Source: Bacteroidota bacterium (GTDB lineage: Bacteria; Bacteroidota; Bacteroidia; Chitinophagales; Saprospiraceae). Taken from it: a stretch of 37,811 nucleotides of DNA. The stretch lies in contig JAKQJD010000563.1 in NCBI GenBank assembly GCA_029561355.1, positions 1 to 37,811 of the forward strand. The letters are read 5' to 3'. The position numbers and the translations under genes were made by a program. The notes under the pieces were generated by a model, which had not been told where the DNA came from, did not search any database, and saw nothing but the letters and a program-made list of their open reading frames with translations. Shown here one piece after another: positions 2,327 through 33,568 of the stretch (position 1 is its first letter; each line of letters opens with the position of its first letter).

Positions 2327-3433
2327 ATGGCATTCAACTATACCATCGACGACATCGACCGGCTGGACTCCCCGGCGCTGGTCATTTACCCGGAACTGGT
2401 CAGGCACAACATCGACCTTGCTATCCGGATGATCGGCGATGTGGATCGCCTGCGCCCGCATGTCAAAACCCACAAATCGGCTGAAGCAACCCGCCTCATG
2501 CTGGATGCGGGCATCCGGAAATTCAAATGCGCCACCATTGCCGAAGCAGAAATGCTCGGCATGTGCGGCGCCCCCGACGTGCTGCTGGCGTATCAGCCGG
2601 TAGGGCCGAAAGTGCAGCGTTTTATAGCGGTCATTGAAAAATGCCCGGCCACACAATTCTCCTGCCTCACCGACGACCTTTCCGCAGCACAGGCTATGGC
2701 TGCCGCCTTTGCCGAACGAAATCTGAAAGTGCCGGTTTATATCGATCTGAATATCGGGCAAAACAGAACAGGCATCACTCCTGAAGCGGCGTTCGATCTG
2801 TATGCTGCCTGCGCGGCTATGAACGGAATTCGCCCTGTTGGCCTGCAAGCCTACGACGGGCACATTCGCAGCACCGATCTGAAAGTGAGAAAAGCGGCCT
2901 GCAATGCGGCATTTGCCCGGGTAACTTCCTTGAAAGACGAACTTGTAGAAGCGGGTCATCCGGAACCGGTCATCGTGGCCGGCGGCTCGCCTACCTTCGC
3001 TATTCACGCCGCGCGGGAGCAGGTGGAATGCAGTCCGGGAACCTTTATTTACTGGGACAAGGGGTACAGCGATCTTTGCCCCGACCAACCTTTCAAACCC
3101 GCTGCGCTGCTTGTGACACGGGTGGTTTCCCTGCCGGATAGCAGTAAAATTTGCCTGGACCTGGGCCATAAATCAGTTGCTGCCGAAAATTCGATTGAGC
3201 ACCGGGTGTTTTTTCCCGATGCTCCCGGCCTCAAACCAATCGGACAAAGCGAGGAACACCTGGTGATGGAAACCGAAACGGGGCATTCCTGGAAAGTTGG
3301 CGACGTTTTATACGGTTTGCCTTATCACATTTGCCCGACGGTAGCCCTGCACGAGCGGGCATTTACCATAGAAAATGGAAAAGTGACGGGCGAATGGCGG
3401 GCGGTAGCGCGGGATCGGAAAATTACGGTTTGA
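2327..3433 (+). CDS. DSD1-type PLP enzyme (D-serine dehydratase / D-threonine aldolase family)
   Basis: 368 residues. An alanine-racemase-like N-terminal barrel carries RPHVKTHK at residues 43-50; K47 is the expected Schiff-base lysine. The C-terminal domain carries YHICPTV, where H334 and C336 match the metal-binding His-x-Cys pair of eukaryote-type D-serine dehydratase and D-threonine aldolase. Such enzymes convert D-serine to pyruvate and ammonia, or cleave D-threonine to glycine and acetaldehyde; the sequence alone does not separate these, and other D-hydroxy amino acids are possible. It starts one base after the RidA stop. RidA beside it favours dehydratase chemistry through 2-aminoacrylate (inference). 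Its TGA lies inside the left arm of an inverted repeat. It is cytoplasmic, without signal peptide. Confidence 0.88.
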   Translation: MAFNYTIDDIDRLDSPALVIYPELVRHNIDLAIRMIGDVDRLRPHVKTHKSAEATRLMLDAGIRKFKCATIAEAEMLGMCGAPDVLLAYQPVGPKVQRFIAVIEKCPATQFSCLTDDLSAAQAMAAAFAERNLKVPVYIDLNIGQNRTGITPEAAFDLYAACAAMNGIRPVGLQAYDGHIRSTDLKVRKAACNAAFARVTSLKDELVEAGHPEPVIVAGGSPTFAIHAAREQVECSPGTFIYWDKGYSDLCPDQPFKPAALLVTRVVSLPDSSKICLDLGHKSVAAENSIEHRVFFPDAPGLKPIGQSEEHLVMETETGHSWKVGDVLYGLPYHICPTVALHERAFTIENGKVTGEWRAVARDRKITV

Positions 3434-3580
3434 ACAGGATTTGCCGGATTTTTAAATGATTGGAAGGATTTTCGGCTTTTGCTGTATTCCGGTATCCGTT
3501 CAAAACATGAACCATCTTTTAGTAAACCTTTGAGTACGATATCCTCCCGATCGTTTAAAATCCTTTCAATCCTGTTCAAA
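3429..3580. repeat. Inverted repeat, AGGATT-word hairpin
   Basis: Arms 3429-3441 (TTTGAACAGGATT) and 3568-3580 are perfect complements over 13 bases. Inside, 3459-3472 (ATTGGAAGGATTTT) pairs with 3557-3570 with one mismatch, so two registers compete for the same right arm. The word GGATT or AGGATT recurs through the left side. The stop codon of the preceding gene lies in the left arm, and the next gene starts 9 bases after the right arm. Confidence 0.8.
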
Positions 3581-3589
3581 ATACAACCC

Positions 3590-4657
3590 ATGTTCCTCAT
3601 CGACGCCCACCTCGACCTCAGCATGAATGCCATGGAATGGAACCGCGACCTGCGGCAGCCCATTCTTTCCATCAACGAACGCGAACAAGGTATGACCGAC
3701 AAACCCGACCGGGGCAACGCGACGGTTTGTTTGCCGGAATTGCGCGAGGGAAATATCGGGCTGGTGGTGGCCACGCAAATTGCCCGCTACGTAGCCGCTG
3801 ATAACCCACTGCCCGGATGGAACTCTCCCGAGCAGGCCTGGGCCCAGACGCAGGCCCAATTGGCCTGGTACCGCGCCATGGAGGCGGCCGGTGAAATGGT
3901 ACAAATTACAGATTTACACACCCTGAAAGAGCACCTGGCACTTTGGAACGACGGCGCTTCCAATGCGCAAAAACCCGTCGGATACATCCTCAGCCTGGAA
4001 GGCGCCGATTCGCTGGTAAGTCTCGAACACCTCGAAATGGCCTGGAACTACGGGCTACGCGCGCTCGGCCCCGCCCACTACGGACCGGGCCGGTACGCCA
4101 ATGGCACCGACGCGACCGGTAAAATGGGGCAAAACGGAGTGGATTTGCTGAAAAAAATGGAATCACTCGGCATAATCCTCGACGCCACACACCTGTGCGA
4201 CGACGCTTTCTGGCAGGCTATGGAACATTTTAACGGCCACGTGTGGGCCAGTCATAACAACTGCCGGGCGCTGGTGCCGCACAACCGCCAGTTTTCAGAC
4301 GAACAACTGAAAGAACTTATTCGCCGCGACGCCGTGATCGGCGCAGCCTTCGATGCCTGGATGATCGTGCCCGGATGGCAGCGGCAGGTGTCGACGCCAG
4401 AGAGCATGGATTGCAAAATGGACCGCGTAATCGACCACATCGACCACATTTGCCAACTGGCGGGAAATGCGCTGCACGCAGGCATCGGTTCCGACCTGGA
4501 CGGCGCATTCGGTACCGAACAATGCCCTTACGACCTCAATACGATTTCGGATATGCAAAAAATGGGTCCGCTACTGGAAGCGCGCGGTTACACGGAAGAA
4601 GACGTGGAGAATATCCTGCACGGCAACTGGCTGCGGTTTTTGAGGAAAGCGTGGTGA
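3590..4657 (+). CDS. Membrane-dipeptidase-family peptidase (M19)
   Basis: 355 residues from the ATG at 3590 (MFLIDAHLDLSM); an upstream extension to 3479 is only the repeat region. M19 zinc ligands are all present at the expected spacing: H7 and D9 (DAHLD), E137 (LEGAD), H201 (DATHLC), H222 (ASHNN), plus D302 (GSDLDG). M19 enzymes cleave dipeptides, often with a D-residue at the C-terminal position. No signal peptide is seen, so it probably acts in the cytoplasm. It follows the RidA and DSD1-like genes on the same strand, separated by an inverted repeat, and together they fit release and then degradation of D-amino acids from dipeptides (inference). Its TGA touches the stop of the convergent transporter gene with no spacer. 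Confidence 0.92.
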   Translation: MFLIDAHLDLSMNAMEWNRDLRQPILSINEREQGMTDKPDRGNATVCLPELREGNIGLVVATQIARYVAADNPLPGWNSPEQAWAQTQAQLAWYRAMEAAGEMVQITDLHTLKEHLALWNDGASNAQKPVGYILSLEGADSLVSLEHLEMAWNYGLRALGPAHYGPGRYANGTDATGKMGQNGVDLLKKMESLGIILDATHLCDDAFWQAMEHFNGHVWASHNNCRALVPHNRQFSDEQLKELIRRDAVIGAAFDAWMIVPGWQRQVSTPESMDCKMDRVIDHIDHICQLAGNALHAGIGSDLDGAFGTEQCPYDLNTISDMQKMGPLLEARGYTEEDVENILHGNWLRFLRKAW

Positions 4658-5971: not shown

Positions 5972-5990
5972 GAGGAGTGTTTTTATCTGG

Positions 5991-6081
5991 TTGCGGATTC
6001 AGGGCGGCGGGACCCGGTAAGTCATCCGATAACTTCGAGTCATCGGATGACTTGCCGGGTCCCGCCGCCCTGAATCCGCAA
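5991..6081. repeat. Near-perfect 40-bp inverted repeat, GC-rich
   Basis: Arms 5991-6030 and 6042-6081 match over 40 bases with a single T/C difference that would still pair as G-U in RNA. The loop can pair further (ACT 6032-6034 with AGT 6038-6040). The arms include GGGCGGCGGGACCCGG and AAGTCATCCGAT. It sits between the start of the UMF1 gene and the end of the MscS gene, both on the minus strand, about 70 bases from the MscS stop. It lacks the clear iterated word of the other hairpins in this window. It could be a terminator for the MscS gene or a REP-like element. Confidence 0.93.
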
Positions 6082-6148
6082 ATCCTTTATTCGTGGTAAT
6101 AGTACTGCGAAAATTTCTTTCCCGAAAATACTCTTTTACGCCGCAGGT

Positions 6149-7072
6149 TCAGATGTTTTCTTTCCGGCGTTCTTTGGCCAGTTCGATACCCGCAACTTCG
6201 AAGGCTTTTTTCAATTCTTCATACAGGAAGTGCAAGGTCTCTTCGTAGGTTTCTCCTTTGGTCCACACCGCGATTTGCACCTTCATGTCTTCCCTGTTCA
6301 TGCCGCTGATCTGCACGGCAGCGGGGCCGAATCCGGAGTTGTACGGGCAACGGGCAGCCACTTCGTCGACGGTGGCGCGCAGCCATTCGAGTGGCGTTTT
6401 GCTATTCAGCAGCAGGCTCACTTCGGCCTGCACATCGGAACCGTCGGCAATGTTTTCAATCGGGCCTTCCATCATTTTTCCGTTGGGGATGATGATCTTT
6501 TTACCCGCAGAGGTCATCAAAACCGTACTGAATACTTGTATCTCGGCCACTTTTCCGGTTTTGTCGCTCACGGTGAGCAGGTCGCCCACACGAAACGGCC
6601 GGAACAACAGAATGAGTACGCCGCTGGCAAAATTCCCAAGGCTGCCCTGTAGTGCCAACCCGATGGAAAATGCCACCGCAGAAAAAACGGCAATAAAAGA
6701 CGTCGTTTCAATGCCTATGGTACTGGCGACCATCAGGATCAAAATGGCTTTCATGCCGGTATCGCACAAAGAAGCAAAAAACGGCCGCAGGCTGGGATCC
6801 ACTTTTTTCGTGCGCAAAAACATATCAAAACCGCGGGTCAGGCGTTTAATGACCCACAAGCCGATGATGATAAGGAGTATTGCGCTCACGGCTTTGGGAC
6901 CGTATATCCAGCACAAATCTACAAGGCGGTCGAGGTACGATTTTTCTTCCAAGAGCGTTTCGGTACAGTTGATGACAAGAAAATTCCGGCTTTTGGCCGA
7001 AAACGTCGCAAAGTTGTTAAAAAGGTGGATTGGAAGTGTGAATTTTGCACCTGAAATTTCATCTAACCCCAT
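6149..7072 (-). CDS. Small-conductance mechanosensitive channel (MscS family)
   Basis: Up to 307 residues. Membrane segments lie near 61-77, 107-122 and 126-158. The pore helix and the following arm read FSIGLALQGSLGNFASGVLI (136-155) and FRPFRVGD, with IPNGKM at 195-200, all typical of MscS. These channels open on membrane tension and release solutes in hypo-osmotic shock; a C-terminal soluble cage follows the pore. Length is close to E. coli MscS. The only ATG is at 7072, exactly at the edge of a MITE-like element; the first 35-40 residues look weak, and a TTG or GTG start near residue 35-41 is possible. So the insertion may have replaced the original 5' end. Confidence 0.9.
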   Translation of the reverse strand: MGLDEISGAKFTLPIHLFNNFATFSAKSRNFLVINCTETLLEEKSYLDRLVDLCWIYGPKAVSAILLIIIGLWVIKRLTRGFDMFLRTKKVDPSLRPFFASLCDTGMKAILILMVASTIGIETTSFIAVFSAVAFSIGLALQGSLGNFASGVLILLFRPFRVGDLLTVSDKTGKVAEIQVFSTVLMTSAGKKIIIPNGKMMEGPIENIADGSDVQAEVSLLLNSKTPLEWLRATVDEVAARCPYNSGFGPAAVQISGMNREDMKVQIAVWTKGETYEETLHFLYEELKKAFEVAGIELAKERRKENI

Positions 7073-7237
7073 AAGAGCATGTTGAGATTTTACTTGTTGG
7101 GCTACAGCCGAAAAATTTCATTTGTACCGGCGTTAAATTTCTCGCCGGATTACCCGTATCCGACTGCGAAATTTGCCTTGTTACGAAATGAATTTTTTCT
7201 GTCTTCGCCTCAACACTGAAATCTCAACATGCTCTAA
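7072..7237. mobile_element. MITE-like element E1 with TAA target duplications
   Basis: Element 7075-7234 (160 bp) is flanked by TAA at 7072-7074 and 7235-7237. Terminal repeats GAGCATGTTGAGATTT (7075-7090) and its exact complement (7219-7234) are 16 bases. The core has CGTTAAATTT, a central hairpin CGGAT/ATCCG and GAAATTTGCCTTG. The same core at the same offset is found at 32611-32771. No coding capacity. A 3-bp TNA duplication is typical of the IS1031 group of the IS5 family, so that group is a candidate source of the transposase (inference). Confidence 0.8.
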
Positions 7238-7281
7238 GTACATTTACCAACCCACTCGTATTTTCCATAAATCACATTTTA

Positions 7282-9948: not shown

Positions 9949-9955
9949 ATTTTTC

Positions 9956-10064
9956 GTTATTAGTTATTGGTTATTCGTTATTAGTGGTGGTACCTTTTGG
10001 CTTGGATTAATGCCAAAGGCTGCCACCACTAATAACTAATAACTAATAACCAATAACTAATAAC
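9956..10064. repeat. Iterated-word hairpin, AGTTATT/AATAACT word
   Basis: Left arm 9956-9990 and right arm 10023-10064 are complementary except that the right arm holds one extra 7-base unit. The arms are made of the word AGTTATT (complement AATAACT) iterated with period 7, capped by GTGGTGG/CCACCAC. The loop pairs further (CCTTTTGGC with GCCAAAGG). It begins 7 bases after the aminopeptidase stop and ends 6 bases before the next ATG. The same word forms the outer stem at 10516-10758. Confidence 0.92.
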
Positions 10065-10070
10065 AAAACA

Positions 10071-10514: not shown

Positions 10515-10515
10515 G

Positions 10516-10758
10516 TTGGTTGTTAGTTATCCGTTATTAGTTATTAGGGTGGTAGCCCTGATAATCTGGTGGAGAAGCAAGCCGATATCTATTTACAACA
10601 ACGCCTGACCACTCAAACGAGCAGCCAGGCTTTGTTGTAAGTTGCCCACCATTCTATCAGGGTGTAATAAACTTCAACGCCTGGCCACTCAAACGAGCAG
10701 TCAGGCGTTGTTACAGATGGTCCCTTACCACCCCTAATAACTAATAACCAATAACCAA
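10516..10758. repeat. Iterated-word outer stem (AATAACT) enclosing two nested hairpins
   Basis: The outer arms, about 10518-10554 and 10727-10758, are built of the AGTTATT/AATAACT word and capped by GGGTGGTA/TACCACCC. The stretch begins one base after the GNAT stop (10514) and ends directly at the stop of the convergent foldase gene (10759), so it serves both 3' ends. It encloses the structured segment 10556-10709. Confidence 0.85.
10556..10709. other. Tandem hairpins with identical loop, possible structured RNA
   Basis: Two copies of a hairpin: A 10593-10640 (arms TTACAACA and TTGTTGTAA, inner GCCTG/CAGGC) and B with arms AACGCCTG 10675-10682 and CAGGCGTT 10702-10709. Both share the loop CCACTCAAACGAGCAG. 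Copy A is further enclosed by CCCTGATA (10556-10563) with TATCAGGG (10655-10662) and GGTGG (10568-10572) with CCACC (10646-10650). No ORF explains it. Function unknown. Confidence 0.6.
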
Positions 10759-12732
10759 TTATTTCTTCACAAGCGTCTTCAATGCTTCCTCGTTGATCTG
10801 CACCGGATATGCCTGGCGCAGTTCCTCGATCCAGCGTTTTTCCAGGTAATCCTGGTAGTCGGCTACGGCATAGCCGCGGGCTTCGGCAAGACCTTTTGGG
10901 GTAGGAGGCACGATCTCTTCGATTTTCAGGAAGTACGACGTTTTGGTAGAGGCATCCGACTTCACGCTGGTGACGGCGCCTGCCGACCAGAATGCACCCA
11001 GGTCCTTGTTTTTGCCTTTTTCATAGAGTTTCTCCATGACGGTCACGACCTCTTCCTTTTTATTGATCTTTTTGAGCACGTCGGCGGAAGGTTTTTTGGA
11101 AGCCAGCGCGCGCACTTTTTCCGCCATTTTCGGATCGTCCGTTTTCAGCGTATAAATCGTGACGCGGGCGCGTTCCTCCCATTTGTATTTGTCGGCCAGG
11201 TTGGCTTTAAAATACTTGTCGAGACCGAGCGTATCGTTATTGGCTTTGTCCCACACATTGATTTTCAGCGCTTCAAACAGCAGAATGCCTTCTTCGTATT
11301 CGCGCATCAGGGAATGAAAGTCGGGGTATTTGGAATCCAGTTGGCTTTCCTCGAACTGCATGGTTACCTCGTCCGACCAGTTTTTGTACAGGCGCTGGAT
11401 GGTTTCGTCGATGGGCAGTCCGACGCCACGCATGCGGTCGCGGCCCGTTTTCAGGCTGTAATCTTCAAAATCGGCTACCGTATACGATTTATTGTCGCTA
11501 TAGCGCATCAGCACATCCTGCGGTTTGGCAGGATCGGGTTTCCATTTGAACGTCAGGAAAACACTGTCTACCTGTTTGGCCGACCATTTTGCCAGCACAG
11601 CGGGGTATTCCTGAAAACGGCTTTCTTTTTTGATGCGCGCGATCATACTTTGTTTTGAAATTTCGCTGCGGCTGTCGCGTTTGATGCGTTCGCTCAATCC
11701 GCGTTTCACGCTTTCGAAAGTGCCGACCGGGCGGCGGCTGATGCGCTTGATCACGTGCCAGCCCAGGCTCGTTTCAACGGGCGCGGTGTAGTCGCCGTCT
11801 TTTTCCAGGGCAAATGCTGCGTCTTCAAAAGTGCGCTGGTAACGATTGATGCCGAAAAAGCCGATGTAACCGCCTTTGGGAGCCGTCACTTTATCTTCGG
11901 AAAAACGTGCAGCCACGTCATCCCAGCTAGCACCGCTTTTCAGCAAAGTGTATACACTGTCGATGCGCATGCGTTGCAGGGAATTTTTTTCGGGCGATTT
12001 ATCCTTGCGAACAAGGATCTGCGCTACCTCTACCTCGCCGCGGGCGGGGCGAAATTCATTTACCATTACGATGTGGTAACCGGTATTGGAGCGAACCGGA
12101 CCCACCACAGCACCTTTGGAGGCCGAGTAAATGGCTTTTTCCATTTCATAATAACCGTCGGGGAGCATGGCAGATACGAAGCCCAGGTTGCCACGGTTTT
12201 CTTTGGCCGATTTGTCGTCCGAACTGTCGGCAGCCACTTTTTCGAAAGAGGCGCCGCCTTTAACCAGATTGAAAATATTCATGGCGCGGTTGTAGGCGCG
12301 CAGCGAATCGGCGGCTTTGGCATTGCGGTCGCATGCAATAAAGATGTGGCTGATATTCACATCCTGCAGCATACGGGCATATGTCTCGTGAATAAGTTTT
12401 TCAGTCACTTCCTTATCCACCAGGTAGGAATTGGCCAACTGGCGGCGGTATCCTTCCAGTTCGCTTTGCAGGGAGGCTACGGTATCCAGTTTCATATCGC
12501 GGGCTTTTTGCACCTTGAGTTTGAACTTGGTATACAGGTCGAGGTAATCCCGCAGAGACGCCTCCGAAAAGTCGGCTTTGTCCTGATTGGTTTTGGTATA
12601 AATGTACCTGAATTCGGATACGGTTACAGGTTTGCCGTTTACGGTAAACAGTACGGGATCGCCGGATTGGGCGGTCAGCGAAGCTGCAAACCACAAGAGG
12701 AGGCAGGCCGAGGCCAGCAAATTTTTAAACAT
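10759..12732 (-). CDS. Periplasmic peptidyl-prolyl isomerase (PpiC/SurA-like)
   Basis: 657 residues from the ATG at 12732, which gives a clean signal peptide (MFKNLLASACLLLWFAASLTAQ). A start at 12747 (MPPIIMFK) is also possible; the longest frame, to 12792, is less likely. Two parvulin domains are visible, near 126-227 (HIFIACDR ... GYHIVMVNEF) and 234-333 (VAQILVRKD ... GWHVIKRI), preceded by a SurA-like helical part and followed by a long C-terminal region without clear match. Such proteins help fold outer-membrane proteins in the periplasm. Its stop touches the hairpin at 10516-10758. The leader region upstream has a small AT-rich hairpin (12837-12860) and a TAATTTTG box on the minus strand. 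Confidence 0.92.
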   Translation of the reverse strand: MFKNLLASACLLLWFAASLTAQSGDPVLFTVNGKPVTVSEFRYIYTKTNQDKADFSEASLRDYLDLYTKFKLKVQKARDMKLDTVASLQSELEGYRRQLANSYLVDKEVTEKLIHETYARMLQDVNISHIFIACDRNAKAADSLRAYNRAMNIFNLVKGGASFEKVAADSSDDKSAKENRGNLGFVSAMLPDGYYEMEKAIYSASKGAVVGPVRSNTGYHIVMVNEFRPARGEVEVAQILVRKDKSPEKNSLQRMRIDSVYTLLKSGASWDDVAARFSEDKVTAPKGGYIGFFGINRYQRTFEDAAFALEKDGDYTAPVETSLGWHVIKRISRRPVGTFESVKRGLSERIKRDSRSEISKQSMIARIKKESRFQEYPAVLAKWSAKQVDSVFLTFKWKPDPAKPQDVLMRYSDNKSYTVADFEDYSLKTGRDRMRGVGLPIDETIQRLYKNWSDEVTMQFEESQLDSKYPDFHSLMREYEEGILLFEALKINVWDKANNDTLGLDKYFKANLADKYKWEERARVTIYTLKTDDPKMAEKVRALASKKPSADVLKKINKKEEVVTVMEKLYEKGKNKDLGAFWSAGAVTSVKSDASTKTSYFLKIEEIVPPTPKGLAEARGYAVADYQDYLEKRWIEELRQAYPVQINEEALKTLVKK

Positions 12733-13043: not shown

Positions 13044-16000
13044 TTAAATCTTGGCGATTTTTACGGTTTTCACTTCACCGTTACCCAGTTTAATGCGAAC
13101 CATGTAAATACCGGAAGGAAGGTTGGACATGGTCACTTCTTCCTGTACTACCGAACCTTTCGGGATCGTCAGTGTGTGAATAACGTCTCCCTGCGTCGTC
13201 GAAATGGTGACGATCACGTCGGAATCGTATGACATCACATTTTTGATCAGCAGTTTATCCGTTACAGGGTTCGGGTTCACCGTTACAGCCGTTACGGCAG
13301 ACAGATCGAGGCGAACTTCCACACTTTGGGAGAACGCGTTGATACCATTTGCATTGGAACGTTTGACGCGGTAGTAGCTCGTGCCGGCCAGTGGTGTCTG
13401 GTCGATCGCACTGTACGTGTTCGGGCCGGTCGTGTTGTGTTGACCCATTACAGTGGTAACCACATCCCAGGTGATACGGTTGGCTGAACGCTGCACCGTG
13501 TAGATGTAAGCGTCGCCTTCCGCTCCGGTAGCCCAGTCGATACCTACGGTGTTGTTCGGCTGAACAAGCGCGTGGATTTCGGAAGTGAAATCAGGACAGT
13601 TGCTGCCGCCTGCAGGCTGAACAGTGATAACGATGATGTTCGATTCCAGGAAGTTGTTGCAACCGGCACGGCGTGCGCAGCGCATGTAACGCGAGGTTTC
13701 GAACAAAGCACCCGGATGGTAGGTAGCGCTGGTAGCACCCGGAATCGGTTGCCATGCAGGCAGGCCATTCACCAGAACCAGTTGCATCCACTGGTATTCG
13801 AAAGCACCGGAACCACCGCTTGGAGGATTTACCTCATAAATGGTATTGGGTGTCTGACCTTCGCAGATGATCTGGTCGCAGCAGATGAAGCCGGCATAAG
13901 TCACGTTCACACAAGGAATGTGAATACCTGCATCGAAGCACAGATTGTCGGGCTGACCGGCAATGATCGTGAACGGAGATGTTTTGCCGTTCGCACCGGC
14001 ATCGCTGTCGTTGCAATCATTGGAGGTGTTGTCTTTCGGAGAAAATACATACCCTGTAGGAATACCGCTAAACATGATGACGTAGGTGCCCGGTGTCACG
14101 CAGGTGAAATGGTAAATACCGTCATTGTCGGTCGTGGTAGTCGCAACGATCACGTCGTCGGCCGTGCCGAAATTACCGTCGGTGCCTGCTTTGATCAGCA
14201 TGACCGTTACACCAGGTACGCCGCCGTCGAGTTCGATGTTGTTCTGGAAGCCATCCTGTGTGTCGTCGTACCAAACGAAGTCGCCGATGGTGATGCCATT
14301 AGCGGTCGTTCCGATCGTGACGGTAGCCGTAGCCGTACAACCTGCAGCATCCGTAACTGTTACGGTATGCGTGCCTGCAGTAAGGTTGGTCGCCACAGCC
14401 GTATTTTCATTATTATCCCAGTGGTAGGAATAAGGCGTAGCGCCGCCGGATGCGCTGGCAGTAGCGCTTCCTGGCTGATCGCAACGGGCATTGGAAGACG
14501 CCACGATCACTACATTTGGCGGGATAGCCGCTGCAACGCTGACTTGTCCGGTAGACGTGCAACCGAGTGCATCAGTAACCGTCACCGTATAAGTACCTGC
14601 GCTCAGGTTGGTGAGGTTTTGTGTATTGGCGCCCGTGCTCCAGTGGAAAGAGTAGGGGGGCGTGCCGCCCGTAGCGCCTGCATTGGCAGAACCGCCGCCG
14701 GAAGTACAGTTAGCAGGAGAACCGGGAGAAACGATCGCGGTCGGAGCGCCCGGCTGTGTGATGGTTACCATCGCGGTAGCGGAACAGCCCGCTGCATCGG
14801 TTGCAGTAACATGGTGAACGCCAACGCTCAGGTTGGTAGCCGTAGCCGTGTTCTGACCATTGTCCCACAGGAAAATATAACCGCCGGCTCCGCCGGTAGC
14901 AGTTGCCGTAGCACTGCCGCCTGCTGTGCAGCTGGCATTGTTGTTTACGACTGCCGTTACGGTAGGACCTTGTGTTTGTCCGATAATCACAAATGCCGTA
15001 GCAACACATCCTGTAGCATCGGTAACGGTCACGCTGTGCGGACCAGCGCCGAGGTTGGTGGCAGTAGCGGTAGTCTGGTTGTTATCCCATTTGAAAGTGT
15101 AGGGAGGAGTGCCGCCCGCGCCGGTAGCCGTTGCGCTGCCGCCGAGGAGGCAGGTAGCATTGGTCACAACCACTGCGGTAGCAGTAAGTGTAGGAGCGGT
15201 CGGTACGTTGACGGTTCCGACGCCTGTGCAACCGGTGGTGATATCCGTTACGGTAACACTGTGGTTGCCCGCGCTCAGGTTCGAAGCCATGGCCGTGTTC
15301 TGGCCGTTATCCCAACTGAAAGCGTAGTTACCGGAACCACCGCTGGCAGATGCCATTGCTTTGCCGCCCACTACACAACCTGCATTGGTGATAACCGTTG
15401 CAGTAACCGTGAGGCTGGTATTGGTGCCGCCGATGGTGATCGTCACAGGTTTGGTGCAGCCGTTGGCGTCGGTCAGGGTAGCGGTATACGTACCTGGCAA
15501 GCCGGTAATGGTGAAACTGGTCGAACCTGTATTCCAGATGATCGTGTAAGGAGGTGTGCCGCCGCTCGGGAATACCGTAGCGCTGCCGGCAAGGCCGCAG
15601 GCCGCATTTACCGTAGTGGAAGTGCATCCCAGCACGGGTGGCTGGGTGATGAGGATATTCGTGAAATTGGAACAACCGTTGGCATCCGTAACGGTTACCG
15701 TGTAGTTGCCCGGTGCAAGCCCGCTCACGCTGGGCGTATTGGCGCCGGTGCTCCAATGGTAGGTATAAGGCGGTGTGCCCGACATGCCCATAACAGAGGC
15801 GGTACCATTGTTCAGGCCGAAGCAGGTAACATTGGTGCTGGTATCCATCAGCCAGATACCCTCATTCCAGAAATAGACCGTGCCGCTACCGGAAGTGGTG
15901 CAGCCGTTGGCGTCCGTTACGGTGACAGTATAGGTTCCTTCCGGCAAGCCGGTGATCTGGGCGGTAGTGCCGCCGTTGCTCCAGTGATAGGTGTAAGGCT

Positions 16001-16415
16001 GCGTGCCGCCATAAGGCACTGCCGTAACCTTGCCATCCGGTACGATACCACAAATCTGGCTTTCTCCGTACACCTGTACGCCCAATTGCGGAGGCTGGGA
16101 AATAATGACAGTGCCGACGGCATAACCCTGGTCAATGTCTGTTGCAGTTACATAATAAGTGCCGGCAGCCAGGCCGGTGACAGAGGCTGTGGTTGCGCCG
16201 GTGCTCCAGTGATAGGTGTATGGAGCCCAACCGCCACCGCCTGTGGCCGTTGCAGTACCATTGCTTCCACCGAAGCAGGAAACGTTGGTGCTGGTAACAG
16301 ACACGGTGACTTGCGCCTGGGTAGCTGCGCCGAGTAAACAAAAATAAATCAGCAGCGCAGCTACTTGCGGTATTCTGCTGACCCGGAATCTGGAAAGTGT
16401 AGAGTTCTGTCCCAT
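13044..16415 (-). CDS. Large secreted protein with SprB-type repeats, SdrD-B-like domain and T9SS sorting domain
   Basis: 1,123 residues. A signal peptide (residues 1-35, ending AATQAQ) is followed by nine repeats of about 70-80 residues, each ending in a version of YTVTVTDANGC followed by a short strand, as in SprB-repeat domains. Next comes an SdrD B-like domain (GDFVWYDDTQDGFQ ... NDGIYHFTCVTPGTYVI), an Ig-like stretch, and at the end a type A T9SS sorting domain (VNPNPVTDKLLI ... SGIYMVRI ... VKIAKI). So it is exported by Sec, crosses the outer membrane by T9SS and is anchored or released at the surface, likely as an adhesin-like protein; SprB itself is a gliding adhesin. The repeats are alike in DNA too, with GC-rich Thr/Gly codons, and this leaves long open frames on the other strand. 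It ends at a strong terminator. Confidence 0.95.
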   Translation of the reverse strand: MGQNSTLSRFRVSRIPQVAALLIYFCLLGAATQAQVTVSVTSTNVSCFGGSNGTATATGGGGWAPYTYHWSTGATTASVTGLAAGTYYVTATDIDQGYAVGTVIISQPPQLGVQVYGESQICGIVPDGKVTAVPYGGTQPYTYHWSNGGTTAQITGLPEGTYTVTVTDANGCTTSGSGTVYFWNEGIWLMDTSTNVTCFGLNNGTASVMGMSGTPPYTYHWSTGANTPSVSGLAPGNYTVTVTDANGCSNFTNILITQPPVLGCTSTTVNAACGLAGSATVFPSGGTPPYTIIWNTGSTSFTITGLPGTYTATLTDANGCTKPVTITIGGTNTSLTVTATVITNAGCVVGGKAMASASGGSGNYAFSWDNGQNTAMASNLSAGNHSVTVTDITTGCTGVGTVNVPTAPTLTATAVVVTNATCLLGGSATATGAGGTPPYTFKWDNNQTTATATNLGAGPHSVTVTDATGCVATAFVIIGQTQGPTVTAVVNNNASCTAGGSATATATGGAGGYIFLWDNGQNTATATNLSVGVHHVTATDAAGCSATAMVTITQPGAPTAIVSPGSPANCTSGGGSANAGATGGTPPYSFHWSTGANTQNLTNLSAGTYTVTVTDALGCTSTGQVSVAAAIPPNVVIVASSNARCDQPGSATASASGGATPYSYHWDNNENTAVATNLTAGTHTVTVTDAAGCTATATVTIGTTANGITIGDFVWYDDTQDGFQNNIELDGGVPGVTVMLIKAGTDGNFGTADDVIVATTTTDNDGIYHFTCVTPGTYVIMFSGIPTGYVFSPKDNTSNDCNDSDAGANGKTSPFTIIAGQPDNLCFDAGIHIPCVNVTYAGFICCDQIICEGQTPNTIYEVNPPSGGSGAFEYQWMQLVLVNGLPAWQPIPGATSATYHPGALFETSRYMRCARRAGCNNFLESNIIVITVQPAGGSNCPDFTSEIHALVQPNNTVGIDWATGAEGDAYIYTVQRSANRITWDVVTTVMGQHNTTGPNTYSAIDQTPLAGTSYYRVKRSNANGINAFSQSVEVRLDLSAVTAVTVNPNPVTDKLLIKNVMSYDSDVIVTISTTQGDVIHTLTIPKGSVVQEEVTMSNLPSGIYMVRIKLGNGEVKTVKIAKI

Positions 16416-20111: not shown

Positions 20112-20116
20112 AATTA

Positions 20117-20201
20117 GTCCGAAGTCTTCAGTGCGAAGTGCGAAGTCAATGGCATTCGAGTGAATGTGGACTTCGCACTTCGCACTGAAGACTTCGGACT
20201 G
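20117..20201. repeat. Iterated-word hairpin, GTGCGAA word, perfect 32-bp stem
   Basis: Arms 20117-20148 and 20170-20201 are perfect complements over 32 bases. The arms repeat GTGCGAA (period 7) within CGAAGTC contexts. The loop pairs inside (CATTC with GAATG). It starts 5 bases after one stop and ends 15 bases before the stop of the convergent barrel gene. The loop is nearly the same as that at 27961-27979. Confidence 0.93.
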
Positions 20202-20216
20202 CCTTCAGACTTAGGA

Positions 20217-21062: not shown

Positions 21063-22109
21063 ATGAGTAGTAGATCAAAATTAAAAAACGGCCTTCATGC
21101 TGTTGTGTTTTCAGGTATTGTGGCATTGCTGGCCGTAAGCTGTGGAGATACTGACGAAAAATCCACTCCGGATGTTTCCGATATTCAGGTGCCGGTGAAG
21201 GTACAGCGTTTCGAAACGGATTTGTTTGCAATAGATACGAGTAATGTGGCGGCAGGGATGGTAGCATTGCAACAAAAATACCCGGTTTTCCTGCCTTTTT
21301 TCCTGTCGCAGGTAGTGCAGGACCCCACACATCCGGGTGAAACACCCGAACAGGCATTGTCCGGTTTTTTAAAAGCGCAGCAGGTGCGCCGCCTTTATGA
21401 TTCCTGCCGCACCCAATATGCCGACCTTACATGGCTGGAACCTCAACTGAATCAGATGTTCCGCTACTACAAATATTATTTTCCGCAAAAGCAGACGCCG
21501 ACCGTGGTAACCGCTATCACCGAACTCGTCGGCGACGCCTACCCGGTGAATGACACGCTGCTGATGCTGAGCCTCGACTACTTCATGGGAGAAAATTTTT
21601 CAGCCTACAATCCCGACTATTTTCCGGAATACCTGCGCCGCCAGTTCAAACAGGAGTACATTCCCATAAAACTGGCAACGGCACTTGCAAACGGCGTCGT
21701 CGGCGCCCCAAAAGGTGACAAGGTGGCCGATTTCATGCTGAACAACGGTAAAATCCTGTATATCGTGGATTGCCTGCTGCCTGCTGTGCCCGACAGTATG
21801 AAAATAGGTTACACCCGCGAACAAATAGAAGGCTGCTATGCTAACGAAGCGGAAGTGTGGGCCCGCCTGCTCGACCTGCGCGTTTTGTATACGCCGGTGA
21901 ACGATAAAAACCAGAAAATCGTGATGCCCAGTCCTACGGCTGAAATTGTATTCCCGCAAGCGCCGGGAGAGGTGGGCAACTGGGTCGGCTGGCAGATTGT
22001 AAAAGCATATATGAAACGCTACCCGGAAACCACCATGGAGCAACTGTTGAACCTTACCGACCCGCAGAAGTTTTTAGAACAGGCGAAGTATAAGCCGAAA
22101 CGTAGCTGA
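21063..22109 (+). CDS. gldB: Gliding-motility lipoprotein GldB
   Basis: 348 residues from the ATG at 21063, chosen because it gives a lipoprotein signal with C27 (LLAVSC); the open frame upstream covers the divergent promoter region and the antisense of the barrel gene. The mature part begins VKVQRFETDLF and has YPVFLPFF, the block YKYYFPQKQTPTVVTAI, and LSLDYFMGENFSAYNPDYFP, all of the GldB pattern, and ends with WVGWQIVKAYMKRYP. GldB is needed for gliding in Flavobacterium and is related to membrane-linked metallopeptidases but lacks HExxH here too. Together with the T9SS cargo at 13044-16415 it suggests a gliding or T9SS-competent cell. Confidence 0.87.
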   Translation: MSSRSKLKNGLHAVVFSGIVALLAVSCGDTDEKSTPDVSDIQVPVKVQRFETDLFAIDTSNVAAGMVALQQKYPVFLPFFLSQVVQDPTHPGETPEQALSGFLKAQQVRRLYDSCRTQYADLTWLEPQLNQMFRYYKYYFPQKQTPTVVTAITELVGDAYPVNDTLLMLSLDYFMGENFSAYNPDYFPEYLRRQFKQEYIPIKLATALANGVVGAPKGDKVADFMLNNGKILYIVDCLLPAVPDSMKIGYTREQIEGCYANEAEVWARLLDLRVLYTPVNDKNQKIVMPSPTAEIVFPQAPGEVGNWVGWQIVKAYMKRYPETTMEQLLNLTDPQKFLEQAKYKPKRS

Positions 22110-22204
22110 GGATTTGAGGATTTGAGGATTTAGTATTTGAGTAGCCACGCTCACATCCTCAAATACTAAATCCTCACATCTTCAAATATTCGCATCCTCA
22201 AATC
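22108..22204. repeat. Iterated-word hairpin, GAGGATTT word
   Basis: The left arm from 22108 has GAGGATTT three times with period 8 and then AGTATTTGA; the right arm (about 22154-22204) is its complement with small gaps (TCCTCAAATACTAAATCCTC ...). The loop GTAGCCACGCTCACATCC is close to that at 25566-25583. The gldB stop overlaps its first bases. Confidence 0.88.
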
Positions 22205-25517: not shown

Positions 25518-25617
25518 GAGGATAGAGGATTTGAAAATGCGAGGATTTGAAAATGCGAGGATTTGAGTGGCCGCTCTTACATCCTCAAATACGCGCATAC
25601 TCAAATCCTCTATCCTC
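25518..25617. repeat. Iterated-word hairpin, GAGGATTT word
   Basis: Arms 25518-25534 (GAGGATAGAGGATTTGA) and 25601-25617 are perfect complements over 17 bases. The left side repeats GAGGATTTGAAAATGC (16 bases) twice. The loop GTGGCCGCTCTTACATCC resembles the loop at 22108-22204. The right arm ends 2 bases before the stop of the transporter gene on the minus strand. Confidence 0.9.
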
Positions 25618-27909: not shown

Positions 27910-28090
27910 AGTGCGAAGCCTGAAAACAGTGCGAAGTCGTCAGTGCTAAGTGCGAAGTCCATGACATTCTAGTGAATATGGACTTCGCATTTCGCACTGA
28001 CGACTTCGCACTGTTTTCAGGCTTCGCACTGAAGACTTCGTACTTCGCACTGTTTTCAGGCTTCGCACTGAAGACTTCGTACTTCGCACT
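27910..28090. repeat. Iterated-word hairpin, GTGCGAA word, 51-bp stem plus 39-bp tandem copies
   Basis: Arms 27910-27960 and 27980-28030 match over 51 bases with two mismatches. The loop (27961-27979) holds ATTC/GAAT and matches the loop at 20149-20169. Behind it a 39-bp unit is duplicated: 28021-28059 and 28060-28090 (cut short). The array ends 4 bases before the stop codon of the small gene 28095-28268. Confidence 0.93.
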
Positions 28091-28094: not shown

Positions 28095-28268
28095 TCAGTG
28101 GCGCAGACTGTTAAATGGCCGCATTTCTTCACCCAGCCAGTTGATGTTCCACTCATCGACGGTTATGATACGTTTCGCCTGCCGCGTCATTTTACGGCGC
28201 AGATAAGCGAATGCGAGGCGGGGCGACTTGCGCCACAAGCGGCGGAATTTTTGGATACGACGAGCCAT
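28095..28268 (-). CDS. Small basic protein of 57 residues, unknown
   Basis: An ATG at 28268 opens a 57-codon frame ending in TGA at 28095-28097. The N-terminal half is rich in Arg and Lys (MARRIQKFRRLWRKSPR, then LRRKMTRQAKR), and the C-terminal half is mixed (VDEWNINWLGEEMRPF). The codons are GC-rich in position 3 like the neighbours, while the DNA upstream is AT-rich as a promoter region would be. No signal peptide and no known family. Its stop lies 4 bases beyond an iterated-word hairpin, as for many real genes here; this supports it. It could bind nucleic acid or ribosomes, but this is a guess. Confidence 0.5.
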   Translation of the reverse strand: MARRIQKFRRLWRKSPRLAFAYLRRKMTRQAKRIITVDEWNINWLGEEMRPFNSLRH

Positions 28269-28429
28269 GACAGAATAGTTTTTGTGATTATCGTAATAAT
28301 GGTAAATTGTTGATTACAAATAAATTAACGCATTTTGAATGCCTTAAGTTTCCGGATGTAATATATTTTTTAGTTAAACTTTTCAAATGTCGCAAATCAG
28401 TCAAAAACAACAATGTGTAAAACCCGGCG

Positions 28430-28437
28430 TACCTTTG
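28430..28437 (+). promoter_or_regulatory. Possible -7 box (TAnnTTTG) for the glycosyltransferase gene
   Basis: TACCTTTG is an exact match to the Bacteroidota -7 consensus, 35 bases before the ATG at 28473, which gives a plausible leader. No TTTG is found 19 bases upstream. The rest of the gap 28269-28472 is AT-rich and holds no other clear element. Confidence 0.45.
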
Positions 28438-28472
28438 TCGGCTAAAATCTTGTATTACCTGAACATTACGCT

Positions 28473-29192: not shown

Positions 29193-29194
29193 TA

Positions 29195-29286
29195 TAGTGC
29201 GAAGTCTGGAAATAGTGCGAAGTCGTCAGTGCGAAGTGCGAAGTCTGGAAACAGTGCGAAGTCGTCAGTGCGAAGTACGAAGTCTT
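29195..29286. repeat. GTGCGAA-word direct tandem array, 39-bp period
   Basis: A 39-bp unit (AGTGCGAAGTCTGGAAATAG... ) is repeated in direct orientation about 2.3 times without an inverted partner, unlike the other loci of this family. It starts 2 bases after the glycosyltransferase stop. Confidence 0.9.
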
Positions 29287-29346
29287 CTCAACAACCTCAA
29301 CCCTCAACAACCTCAACAACCTCAACAACCTCAACAACCTCAACAA
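29287..29346. repeat. CCTCAACAA microsatellite, period 9
   Basis: Six or so copies of a 9-base unit CCTCAACAA with one irregular copy, directly after the GTGCGAA array and 12 bases before the ATG of the next gene. No inverted partner. Variation in copy number would change the spacing to the start codon. Confidence 0.9.
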
Positions 29347-29358
29347 TAAAAACATCCA

Positions 29359-30444: not shown

Positions 30445-30459
30445 ATTCTTTCTTCAGTC

Positions 30460-31485
30460 ATGAGCAAAAAAACATCCCGCTCCCGTTTAGCCTATATCCT
30501 GATCGGGGCGCTGCTGGTTTCCACGATTTTTGTTACGCTTCAACCTTTTTTGCCGAAGCCGGGGTCGGATACCCCACCGCTACCCCCGCCGCCGCCGATT
30601 GAAAAAGTGGCTATTCCAAGTTTCAATGTGGACTCGGCTTTCGTTTTTGTGCAAAAACAGGTGGATTTCGGTCCGCGCGTGCCCAATTCGCCCGCGCACC
30701 AGAAATGTGCAGCCTGGTTTACAGGCGAATTCAAGCGCTACGGTTTGTCGGTCATTTCCCAGAACTTCAAAGCCACGCACTACAAAGGCACCACCTTTAA
30801 TGCTGTCAATATCATTGCACAATACAAACCCAACCTGCCCAAACGCATCTTGCTGGCAGCCCACTGGGACAGCCGTTTTCAGGCAGACAAGGATGAAAAA
30901 AATAAAACCATGCCCATCGACGGCGCCGACGACGGCGCGAGCGGCGCAGCGGTATTGCTCGAAATAGCGCGCACCCTGGCGGCCAACGACGTAAACCTGG
31001 GTGTCGATCTGCTGCTGTTCGACGTGGAAGACCAGGGCGACGACAACGGCGCTTCCGAAACCTGGTGCCTGGGATCGCAGTACTGGTCAAAAAACCTGCA
31101 CCGCCCGTCTTATATGCCGTATTCCGCCATTTTGCTCGACATGGTTGGTGCGAAAGGCGCCCGGTTTATGAAGGAAGGCGTTTCCATGCAGGTGGCCCCG
31201 CAAACAGTCGAAAAAATCTGGAGTCTCGCATCTTCACTCGGATACGGCAACTATTTTGTACCCGACCCGCGTTCGGGCATTACCGACGACCATGTGTTCG
31301 TGGCGCAAGGCGCAGGTATTCCCATGATAGATATTATCAGCACGCCCAATGAGGGTGATGATCCCTTCGGCCGGCACCACCACCGCCATTCCGACAATAT
31401 GAGTGTGATCGATAAAAACACACTCCAGGCAGTTGGCCAGACGCTGACTGCGTTTGTGTATCAGACGTACAACGGGGTCCTGTAG
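30460..31485 (+). CDS. M28-family zinc enzyme, glutaminyl-cyclase-like
   Basis: 341 residues. An N-terminal membrane anchor (YILIGALLVSTIFVTL, 12-27) and a proline-rich linker are followed by the M28 catalytic domain. Residues fit the glutaminyl cyclase branch: H135 in AHWDSR, D158 in GADDGASG, E190-D191 in LFDVEDQG, DMVGA (227-231), TDDH (275-278) and H310 in HHHRHSDN. Animal and bacterial type II glutaminyl cyclases convert N-terminal glutamine to pyroglutamate, a step seen on secreted proteins of Bacteroidota; a peptidase role is also possible. It acts on the periplasmic side. It follows the LptF/LptG-like gene by 15 bases. The array at 31486 begins right after its stop. Confidence 0.85.
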   Translation: MSKKTSRSRLAYILIGALLVSTIFVTLQPFLPKPGSDTPPLPPPPPIEKVAIPSFNVDSAFVFVQKQVDFGPRVPNSPAHQKCAAWFTGEFKRYGLSVISQNFKATHYKGTTFNAVNIIAQYKPNLPKRILLAAHWDSRFQADKDEKNKTMPIDGADDGASGAAVLLEIARTLAANDVNLGVDLLLFDVEDQGDDNGASETWCLGSQYWSKNLHRPSYMPYSAILLDMVGAKGARFMKEGVSMQVAPQTVEKIWSLASSLGYGNYFVPDPRSGITDDHVFVAQGAGIPMIDIISTPNEGDDPFGRHHHRHSDNMSVIDKNTLQAVGQTLTAFVYQTYNGVL

Positions 31486-31628
31486 TAGTGCGAAGTCGTC
31501 AGTGCGAAGTGCGAAGTCTTAAGCCACTCACGTTGTTCTTGACTTCGGACTTCGCACTGACGGCTTCGCACTACTTTCAGACTTCGCACTACTTCAGACT
31601 TCGCACTTCGCACTGACGACTTCGCACT
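31486..31628. repeat. Iterated-word hairpin, GTGCGAA word, two competing right arms
   Basis: Left arm 31486-31518 pairs with 31541-31573 (two mismatches) and, as the alternative, 31487-31518 pairs perfectly (32 bases) with 31597-31628. The array begins at the base after the M28 stop, and its right end encodes the last residues and the stop of the cyclase gene on the other strand. Confidence 0.93.
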
Positions 31629-32367: not shown

Positions 32368-32434
32368 AGTTTTGTAGAATCGCAAGTGCAATCAGGGCGC
32401 ATACGAGGAGCGGAACGTGCCGGGTACTTTCTGA

Positions 32435-32488
32435 GAGCATGTTGATATTGTCCTGTTCTCGCCTCGACATGAAAACATCAACATGCTC
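32435..32488. mobile_element. Short MITE-like relative of E1 (E3)
   Basis: Arms GAGCATGTTGAT (32435-32446) and ATCAACATGCTC (32477-32488) are perfect complements. The first 11 bases equal the E1 terminus, and the segment next to the right end (CTGTTCTCGCCTCGACAT) resembles E1 at about 7195-7220. The core is missing. The flanks are TGA and TTC, not duplicated. It stands alone in the gap before E2. Confidence 0.6.
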
Positions 32489-32607
32489 TTCGTGTTTGAA
32501 CTTTTTGAGATGATGCCGGTTTCTTTCGCGTTCATCGTGCCTTGAAAAAAATTGATCGAATATCCGTTATTTTCGCCGCCGTTCTGCGTTTAAAGGGAGC
32601 CATAAAT

Positions 32608-32774
32608 TAAGAGCCTATCCGAAAACCTCAATGGGCCTGAAAAACCCATCTTTTAAAATCCTCCTTCGTTAAATTTTCAGTCCGTAGGCTCCGGCTACGA
32701 ACCGAAAATTTGCCTTGACTGATTTCAAAATCCGGCCTTTTCAGCCTCCAATGAGGTTTTCGGATAGGCTCTAA
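32608..32774. mobile_element. MITE-like element E2 with TAA target duplications
   Basis: Element 32611-32771 (161 bp), with TAA at 32608-32610 and 32772-32774. Terminal repeats are perfect over 20 bases (GAGCCTATCCGAAAACCTCA and its complement). The core CGTTAAATTTTC, central hairpin CGTAG/CTACG and GAAAATTTGCCTTG sit at nearly the same offsets as in E1. It ends 12 bases before the ATG of the next gene and may affect its promoter. The stretch 32490-32607 between E3 and E2 holds nothing recognised. Confidence 0.82.
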
Positions 32775-32786
32775 AACCACATTTCT

Positions 32787-33467
32787 ATGTTGATTCTTAT
32801 CAGTATTGTTTTCATGATCATCGGGTTCATTTTGAACTCGGTTCTGAAAAACAAATTCAAAAAATACGCCCAGGTGCCGCTTACCAACGGCATGAGTGGC
32901 GCTGAAGTAGCCGCTACGATGCTGAATTTTTACGGCATCGGGAGTGTAAACGTCACGCAGGTAGACGGTCATCTGACGGACCACTACAACCCTGCCGACC
33001 GCACGGTGAACCTCAGTTACGACGTCTATCACGGTCGCAACGTTGCCGCCGCCGCCGTGGCTGCCCACGAATGCGGCCACGCCGTGCAACACTCTACTTC
33101 ATATGCTTTTCTGCAAATGCGTTCGCAACTGGTTCCGGTAGTGACGATTGCTGCAAACCTGCAACAATACCTGTTCATGTTCGGTATCGCGGGCATCGGT
33201 TTTTTCAAAAGCCCGATTCTGCTGATCATTGCGCTGGTGGCATTCGGCATCACTACTTTGTTCAGCCTCATTACGCTGCCGGTAGAATTCGATGCCAGCC
33301 GTCGCGCACTCGCCTGGCTGGATGAATCAGGATTTGCCCGCGGCCGCGAATATGCCGGCGCAAAAGATGCGCTTACCTGGGCTGCCATGACCTACGTTTC
33401 TGCTGCACTGGCCGCGCTGGTACAGTTCCTGTACCTGTTGTGGGCGCTGCTCGGCAACCGGGACTAG
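32787..33467 (+). CDS. Membrane zinc metallopeptidase, YugP-like
   Basis: 226 residues. A helix at the N-terminus (LILISIVFMIIGFILNSVL), the zinc site H94-E-C-G-H98 in AAHECGHAVQH, a long hydrophobic hairpin (about 115-165) and E167 in LPVEFDASRRAL, where the family has its third ligand. This is the neutral zinc protease family of B. subtilis YugP. Substrate and role unknown. A MITE is directly upstream of the ATG, and its stop is 2 bases before a perfect iterated-word hairpin. Confidence 0.9.
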   Translation: MLILISIVFMIIGFILNSVLKNKFKKYAQVPLTNGMSGAEVAATMLNFYGIGSVNVTQVDGHLTDHYNPADRTVNLSYDVYHGRNVAAAAVAAHECGHAVQHSTSYAFLQMRSQLVPVVTIAANLQQYLFMFGIAGIGFFKSPILLIIALVAFGITTLFSLITLPVEFDASRRALAWLDESGFARGREYAGAKDALTWAAMTYVSAALAALVQFLYLLWALLGNRD

Positions 33468-33469
33468 GT

Positions 33470-33568
33470 GATTTAAGATGTAAGATTACATGATGTAAGA
33501 TTTAAGATTGAAATGCGACATCACAAACAATCTTAAATCTTACATCATGTAATCTTACATCTTAAATC
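33470..33568. repeat. Iterated-word hairpin, TAAGATG word, perfect 41-bp stem
   Basis: Arms 33470-33510 and 33528-33568 are perfect complements over 41 bases with a 17-base loop. The arms iterate TAAGATG or TAAGATT with period 7. It spans the whole gap between the convergent stops at 33467 and 33570. This word occurs at no other locus in the window. Confidence 0.95.

Follow-up and report, generated by a model that had tools for sequence, protein, structure and literature searches.

Hairpins of iterated words at gene ends in a Saprospiraceae genome seem to keep their position while their sequence turns over between related species

The window studied here is a stretch of 37,811 nucleotides from a Bacteroidota bacterium of the family Saprospiraceae (assembly GCA_029561355.1, contig JAKQJD010000563.1, positions 1 to 37,811 of the forward strand). 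It contains hairpins, located at or near stop codons, whose arms consist of a short word repeated in tandem, and which we refer to as word hairpins. Such hairpins at gene ends are real and general in this genome, and a comparison with four relatives indicated that their position and shape seem to persist at orthologous gene ends while the sequence turns over. On balance, we consider it probable that they are dispersed palindromes similar to repetitive extragenic palindromes (REP), which are found at stop codons and turn over fast, which are kept palindromic by copying between the arms, and which likely have a role at the 3' end of the mRNA.

Results

Number and position of word hairpins

The genome to which the window belongs, here called G000, comprises 6.83 Mb in 664 contigs, of which the window is contig C310. 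Judged by one protein, its closest named relatives are Saprospiraceae metagenome-assembled genomes. A census of hairpins was made with a home-made gene caller and a home-made hairpin finder in the window and 40 other stretches, 634,140 bp in total or about 9% of the genome. Twenty of the stretches were evenly spaced by contig number, whereas the other 20 were biased to the word AGTGCGA, since they were mostly placed on contigs known from a search for that word. The strict detector required ungapped arms of at least 20 nt with at least 85% complementarity, and a hairpin was classified as a word hairpin if its arms had a period of 7 to 10 with a lag match of at least 0.5.

The census identified 146 hairpins, 81 of which were word hairpins. 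The evenly drawn contigs alone contained 17 word hairpins in 196,728 bp, which corresponds to about 590 per genome with the strict detector. Furthermore, a separate detector found 134 arrays with a period of 7 or 8, of which just 3 were inside genes, and 101 of the 131 non-genic arrays had an inverted partner within 260 nt.

The density of word hairpins per kb of gap was 1.82 in convergent, 1.11 in tandem and 0.30 in divergent gaps. Within tandem gaps, the hairpin was closer to the stop than to the start codon in 44 of 54 cases (for the evenly drawn contigs alone, 7 of 9). A location no closer to stops than to starts was the outcome that an earlier, sequence-only reading of the window had named as refuting its proposal, and in this sample the tie to stops was supported. 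The median distance was 4 nt to a facing stop and 47.5 nt to a facing start. Word hairpins were located within 10 nt of 48 of the 92 facing stops; when they were placed at random 2000 times, each within its own gap, the mean was 39.3 and the maximum 49. Of the 66 facing starts, 6 were within 10 nt of a word hairpin versus 15.6 at random. The distance from start codons is the clearer of the two signals. It was also noted that selection against harmful insertions would be expected to cause such avoidance of starts and of divergent gaps. This would suit an alternative that we regard as possible though less probable, namely that the hairpins are purely selfish palindromic repeats that persist where they are harmless, after stops, and that have no function for the cell, the hairpin being a by-product of replication. 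Known REPs share the placement, and their selfishness has been suggested (PMC3733652).

Turnover at orthologous gene ends

A panel of 57 gene ends from the window and the stretches L112 and L126 was read in four relatives with 77% to 79% DNA identity to G000, wherever the C-terminus was reached. The relatives are referred to as G030, G006, G027 and G034, the genomes of loci L031, L034, L032 and L035, respectively, as matched by identical contig numbers and coordinates. The ends were occupied by a hairpin in 25 of 57 cases in G000, 27 of 45 in G030, 23 of 44 in G006, 20 of 53 in G027 and 19 of 53 in G034. Occupancy was correlated between the species, with odds ratios of 2.2 to 26 and a Fisher p<0.05 in 7 of the 10 pairs; the weakest correlation was that between G006 and G034 (odds ratio 2.2, p=0.33).

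The word at doubly occupied ends was the same as in G000 in just 1 of 15 cases in G030, 1 of 15 in G006, 1 of 13 in G027 and 1 of 12 in G034. More closely related pairs kept the word more often: 8 of 19 ends between G030 and G006 (81.0% DNA identity) and 6 of 15 between G027 and G034 (86.7%), where the same-word rates for random pairs were 8.5% and 12.4%, respectively. Empty sites exist in the relatives, as would suit purely selfish repeats, although selfishness does not require that the same gene ends become occupied again. No account of word replacement at orthologous ends, or of the mixing of cores and words described below, was found in those parts of the literature that were covered.

Canonical terminators at gene ends

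Gene ends with a gap of 50 nt or more numbered 268; of these, 72 had a word hairpin near the stop, 45 had another hairpin and 151 had none, the last class including some word hairpins missed by the detector. With a simple scan, a canonical terminator was found within 130 nt of the stop at 0 of the 72 word-hairpin ends, 1 of the 45 other-hairpin ends and 17 of the 151 hairpin-less ends (p=0.002 for 0/72 versus 17/151); in controls with shuffled letters, the counts were 1 of 72 and 0 of 151. Because the hairpin itself can fill the 130 nt, the scan was extended to 130 nt past the hairpin, and the result was unchanged, with 1 of 72 versus 26 of 151 hairpin-less ends within 260 nt (p=0.0003). These figures also mean that the proposal that genes lacking a hairpin have a canonical terminator or directly touch the next gene is not general. 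Programs that recognize terminators by their T runs may overlook many gene ends in bacteria of this kind.

The location after stops, the strong stems and the scarcity of other terminators could suggest that the word hairpins are themselves ordinary intrinsic terminators of unusual composition. We consider this very improbable, since the absence of a T-rich stretch after 67 of the 72 hairpins already contradicts the classical mechanism, and arms of 20 to 90 nt of repeated words and their rapid replacement by unrelated words also argue against it. Apparent swaps between terminator and hairpin were seen by eye at 10759 and 27910 of the window, where relatives show a short stem of G+C with a T run instead (G030 and G006 in the case of 27910). 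Neither these swaps nor the near exclusion of terminators are required by purely selfish repeats, though insertion into terminators could give both.

Words, cores and polarity

The common layout of an element is a word array, an inner core and a loop of mostly 10 to 30 nt, followed by the reverse complement of core and array. Cores and words were tabulated for 209 hairpins from the five genomes with our own regular expressions, so that the counts are approximate, and for many hairpins none of the listed cores was matched. The core GTAGAkTACACC was found in 15 of 24 GTGAGAG, 14 of 14 AGTCCTAAGTCC and 2 of 17 CACAAAG hairpins, the core CCrCTCG in 4 of 18 AGTGCGA, 10 of 17 GTTTAT and 10 of 14 GTTGATGAGG hairpins, among others, and the core TTGGC in 10 of 27 GTTATT, 8 of 23 GTGTTTGG and 5 of 14 AGTCCTAAGTCC hairpins. 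Cores are common to several words, and words are common to several cores.

The words are lineage-bound, as had been suspected from the window. The 18-mer AGTGCGAAGTGCGAAGTC, with 183 copies in G000, was present in 3 of 41 genomes of the same genus, GAGTCCTGAGTCCTAAGTCC in 2 of 42 and GTTGATGAGGGTTGATGAGGGTTGAT in 12 of 42. Outside the four relatives described above, the 15 outgroup loci scanned out of 18 (10.9 to 21 kb; 13 from Bacteroidota and 2 from Chloroflexi; L048 to L050 left out) are small samples and contained 3 hairpins with a scoring period, in 2 genera, that by eye were not word arrays.

The G-rich strand formed the 5' arm in 77 of the 81 word hairpins (A 22%, C 9%, G 33%, T 35%), and the sense strand was G-rich in 12 of 14 unpaired arrays located beside a stop. 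A polarity of this kind, unpaired arrays included, is not required of purely selfish repeats. Stop codons in all three frames were present in 23 of 81 5' arms (mean 11.8 and maximum 19 in 200 shuffles) and in 25 of 81 3' arms. An effect of stop codons in the 5' arm was rejected as the source of the polarity, because the 3' arms are equally stop-bearing.

Among 590 gene ends in the five genomes, 74 had a word hairpin that started within 12 nt of the stop and whose period was 7 or 8. At 18 of these 74 ends the stop codon recurred in phase, one or two word periods away, compared with 0 to 2 cases at each of seven other lags, and the elements therefore sometimes supply the stop codon. Both this phase and the polarity relative to the gene, together with local copying of the arms, would also fit arrays grown in place by slippage under transcription-associated replication stress at the stop, with an inverted arm made by template switching and without mobility. 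However, the same long words and inner cores occur at many unlinked loci and across species, which independent local growth would not give, and we consider growth in place improbable.

Concordance of the arms and a second palindrome family

Between species, the arms of same-word orthologous pairs differed in 18.4% of the aligned columns (158 of 859, with gaps counted as differences), and mismatches between the arms within elements amounted to 94 of 2033 (4.6%). The concordance within elements suggests arm-to-arm copying. Template switching, in which one arm is copied from the other, homogenizes arms and sometimes inverts the spacer (PMC8604942; PMC8794818). A scan for spacer inversion found that 3 of 20 same-word pairs beat all shuffles in reverse complement and 1 of 20 in direct orientation, versus 1 of 75 in each orientation for different-word pairs; spacer inversion as a footprint of template switching was set aside, as 3 of 20 versus 1 of 75 are too few. 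Growth by local copying, as proposed in the sequence-only reading, is a natural reading for the arms, but is insufficient by itself for the words, since these are dispersed through genome and genus.

A second family of palindromes, with the plan AGTCATCNGATGACT-NNN-AGTCATCNGATGACT, was present in 70 exact copies of this core in G000. In 21 distinct copies, the outer arms were 11 to 43 nt long and mostly unrelated, although a few shared short stretches. With an arm extension that tolerates isolated mismatches, 19 of the 21 copies had no mismatch and 2 had one. Concordant arms are thus also present where there are no repeated words, and palindromes evidently can persist when the sequence of their arms is not conserved; such persistence of unrelated yet perfectly paired arms also fits purely selfish repeats.

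One copy of the second family, of the AGTCATC family with the conserved center AGTCATCCGATGACT, was located at 5991 to 6081 of the window. Relatives have an empty site at this position that lacks the arm sequence, and for this element only, copying of the arms from the local flank was rejected on these grounds.

Hairpin loci in the window

The nine hairpins first reported in the window were real. Eight passed the strict detector, all with a top-scoring lag of 7 or 8, in agreement with the reported period. The ninth, a weak hairpin at 3429 to 3580 with a word of about GGATTT(N), is located at stop 3433 of a D-serine-dehydratase-like gene and has looser, imperfect arms (27 nt, 81% complementary), although its predicted RNA fold (3429 to 3575; z −5.0) was better than all 200 shuffles. 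The predicted folds of seven other hairpins, 10516 to 10758 being left out, had z values of −9.2 to −16.9 that were not equaled by any of 200 shuffles each. A known structured RNA family was rejected, as the Rfam covariance models gave 0 matches in the window at the gathering threshold. A recount of stop codons inside or within 15 nt of a locus gave 13, where 14 had been reported; these end or start at 3433, 9948, 10514, 10759, 20111, 22109, 25620, 28095, 29192, 31485, 31594, 33467 and 33570. The view that different loci use different words does not apply to all of them: AGTGCGA was found at four loci (the array at 29195 included), GTTATTA at two and GGATTTGA at two.

The GTTATTA hairpin at 9950 to 10068 (9952 to 10068 with the strict detector; period 7; inner core GGTGGTACC...GCCACC) comes directly after the gene of an M1-type peptidase (stop 9948), and a GTTATT-word hairpin is kept at this end in G000 and all four relatives. 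GTTATTA arms of period 7 also surround a nested CAACGCCTG hairpin pair at 10516 to 10758 (strict detector 10526 to 10755), an element that occupies the whole convergent gap of 10515 to 10758 from stop to stop.

The AGTGCGA hairpin at 20116 to 20207 (strict detector 20116 to 20200; period 7; 32 of 32 positions paired) is located after stop 20111 of an ArsR-type gene. A second, at 27910 to 28090 (strict detector 27910 to 28030; 51 of 53 paired), has an extra array and adjoins the stop (28095 to 28097, minus strand) of a 57-residue open reading frame. A third fills the convergent gap at 31486 to 31628 (strict detector 31487 to 31628) and contains the cyclase stop 31594, so that the last approximately 11 residues of the predicted protein are word array. 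The end of the M28 gene at 31485, which has AGTGCGA in G000, has other inverted repeats in all four relatives: three are word hairpins with the words GTTGAT, GTGTTTGG and AGTCCTAAGTCC, and that of G027 is a long inverted repeat not built from a word. The fourth AGTGCGA locus, at 29195 to 29286 on the plus strand after stop 29192, is an array without an inverted partner of its own, as had been described. None of the four relatives was found to have it; the gap in G030 and G006 is about 12 nt long, and G027 and G034 have short arrays of other words. A tandem array of the nine-base CTCAACAAC was observed directly after it, at 29287 to 29354, between the glycosyltransferase and LptF/LptG genes.

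The GGATTTGA hairpin at 22107 to 22204 (strict detector 22112 to 22187; period 8) overlaps stop 22109 of a GldB-like gene; GTTGAT/GTTTAT-word hairpins were identified at this end in G030 and G006, and no hairpin in G027 and G034. The other GGATTTGA hairpin, at 25518 to 25617 (period 8/16), is located after stop 25620 (minus strand) of an MFS gene, where G030 has a GTTGAG word, G006 a GTTGATAA word, and G027 and G034 a gap of a few nucleotides without a hairpin. Finally, a perfect AGATTTA/AGATGTA hairpin (period 7; 41 of 41 paired) at 33470 to 33568 fills a convergent gap from stop to stop. The subtilase end at 33570, with AGATGTA in G000, has GTTGAG, GTGAGAG (G034 and G027) and GTTGAT/GTTTAT hairpins in the relatives.

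The genes that flank the hairpins are ordinary chromosomal genes, for a D-serine dehydratase-like protein, M1 peptidase, GNAT, PPIC rotamase, ArsR, GldB, a BatD-domain protein, aldehyde dehydrogenase, MFS, HlyD, glycosyltransferase, LptF/G, M28, cyclase, zinc peptidase and subtilase. Elsewhere in the window, a gene at 13044 to 16415 (minus strand) encodes what is probably an adhesin for gliding or of the cell surface, a large protein that has SprB repeats and a Por secretion tail. Inverted repeats with the common ends AGAGCATGTTGA, similar to miniature inverted-repeat transposable elements (MITEs), were observed at 7074 to 7235, 32434 to 32489 and L066:3811 to 3973, and sequences similar to the region 7072 to 7239 recur in G027 with about 81% to 82% identity. 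Another MITE-like element, with the ends AGAGCCTATCCG, is located at 32607 to 32775 and also at L071:12617 to 12780.

Discussion

The favored explanation is that the word hairpins belong to a large population of palindromic repeats, dispersed through the genome and specific to the lineage, that would work like REPs and bacterial interspersed mosaic elements (BIMEs). Each element would have the plan of a 7- or 8-nt word array, an inner core, a mostly unique loop, the reverse-complement core and the reverse-complement array. Elements would enter beside or into stop codons, where insertion is tolerated, at times supplying the stop, and whole elements would turn over quickly, so that an orthologous gene end comes to be re-occupied by other words. 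One arm would repeatedly be copied from the other, by template switching during replication or by fold-back copying, so that repeat number and sequence could drift while the pairing stays near perfect. In the mRNA, each element would be a very stable stem at the 3' end, whichever direction is transcribed, at ends where canonical terminators are almost never found. It is likely that word hairpins act at the mRNA 3' end, and the likeliest role would be that of a block that causes pausing or termination and gives protection from 3' exonucleases. The analysis shows how the hairpins are distributed, that they turn over between species, that their arms are concordant and have a polarity, and that terminators are scarce beside them, whereas we infer that the elements are mobile, how the arms are copied and that there is a function at the 3' end. 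More tentatively, and with a probability that we put rather low, the 3' end could be a sequence-agnostic part, in which a large hairpin is needed and a pool of palindromes with interchangeable words and cores supplies or replaces it, displacing terminators at many genes, while arm copying changes the sequence and keeps the fold.

Several observations weigh against the favored explanation. The closeness to stops is mostly explained by the tight packing of hairpins in the gaps (39.3 of the 48 at random), and on the evenly drawn contigs 8 of 17 stops were within 10 nt versus 7.1 at random, with no visible excess. The correlated occupancy could stem from shared permissive sites and not from a shared need. 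In the ortholog panel, L112 and L126 were picked for their richness in hairpins, a looser detector was used that also took some stems not built from words, and hairpins between convergent genes were entered once per flanking gene. The two loops lacked detectable homology in 16 of 20 orthologous pairs with the same word, and some same-word pairs may therefore be independent insertions; moreover, 7 of the approximately 21 same-word pairs in the arm comparison come from one site, the end of the M1 peptidase gene. The mismatch of 4.6% within elements is biased downward by a detection that is based on pairing. A T-rich stretch (5 or more T among the next 10 nt) follows just 5 of 72 word hairpins, which are therefore not ordinary intrinsic terminators. 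Finally, no transposase was linked to the word hairpins, Y1_Tnp being the only parent gene sought.

G000 contains two Y1_Tnp genes, and the surrounding loci of 2.2 and 3.3 kb hold other palindromes, one of them ending TTTGTAGC, and no word hairpin. The REP-associated tyrosine transposase (RAYT) was rejected as the mobilizer because both genes are beside other palindromes, although REP copies elsewhere may still be mobilized by them. A Y1_Tnp gene was observed in L108, beside G+C palindromes ending TATCTTTGTAGC that resemble classical GTAG-type REPs and are separate from the word hairpins.

The hairpins are an example from nature of a wholesale replacement of sequence between related species during which position and structure seem to be retained. 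Two old questions therefore become testable: whether REP-like elements are parasites or parts of the 3' end, and whether long hairpins are kept by compensatory selection or by template switching during replication.

Comparison with known systems

No description of this architecture in Saprospiraceae or Bacteroidetes was found in the portions of the literature covered by the search. Template-switch maintenance of inverted repeats is a mutation process, whereas the word hairpins are a family of elements. REPs and BIMEs are dispersed palindromes, tagged by GTAG or CGTC, the GTAG type with RAYT, that are located mainly downstream of genes in convergent and unidirectional gaps, and the ends of GTAG REPs often supply the stop codon (PMC3733652). 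The word hairpins are likewise high-copy dispersed palindromes located mostly downstream of genes, and some of their inner cores do contain GTAG. However, REPs have a stem of 5 to 13 bp and a tetranucleotide tag, whereas the word hairpins have arms of 20 to 90 nt (20 to 86 nt in the hairpins listed) and no constant outer tag, their outer ends being word arrays that vary from family to family, and in G000 they were not associated with RAYT (Y1_Tnp) genes. The TAACTGA heptamer repeats of marine Beggiatoaceae, also found sporadically in Cyanobacteria and in a few Bacteroidetes, are intergenic and, when in forward orientation, contain stops in all three frames, but they are mostly located just upstream of starts in the best-studied genome and are direct repeats rather than inverted pairs (PMC4679880).

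The short tandemly repeated repetitive (STRR) sequences of filamentous cyanobacteria (Nostoc) are usually 7-bp repeats that can form intergenic hairpins, with a suggested effect on transcript stability or on termination near the 3' end (PMC2670836). The word hairpins likewise consist of 7-bp units in tandem that can pair with each other between genes, with a period of at least 8 in some families. STRR sequences differ in belonging to another phylum and in being described at single loci, and the parts of the source that were available describe no word replacement, shared cores or genome-wide census of gene ends. In Geobacter metallireducens, the multicopy repeats of classes 1 to 3, annotated as 'predicted global regulator binding sites', include four tandem octanucleotides GTTGCTYN (48 sequences) and five tandem heptanucleotides MTYCTGA (16 sequences); they are mostly paired, those of class 1 on opposite strands at a variable distance (PMC2700814). 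These repeats differ in being read as possible IHF/HU sites, and anchoring to stops and turnover are not described in the portion of that source that was consulted. As far as the covered sources go, the 7-bp repeat hairpins of Nostoc and the paired hepta- and octanucleotides of G. metallireducens are the nearest described relatives in kind of the word hairpins.

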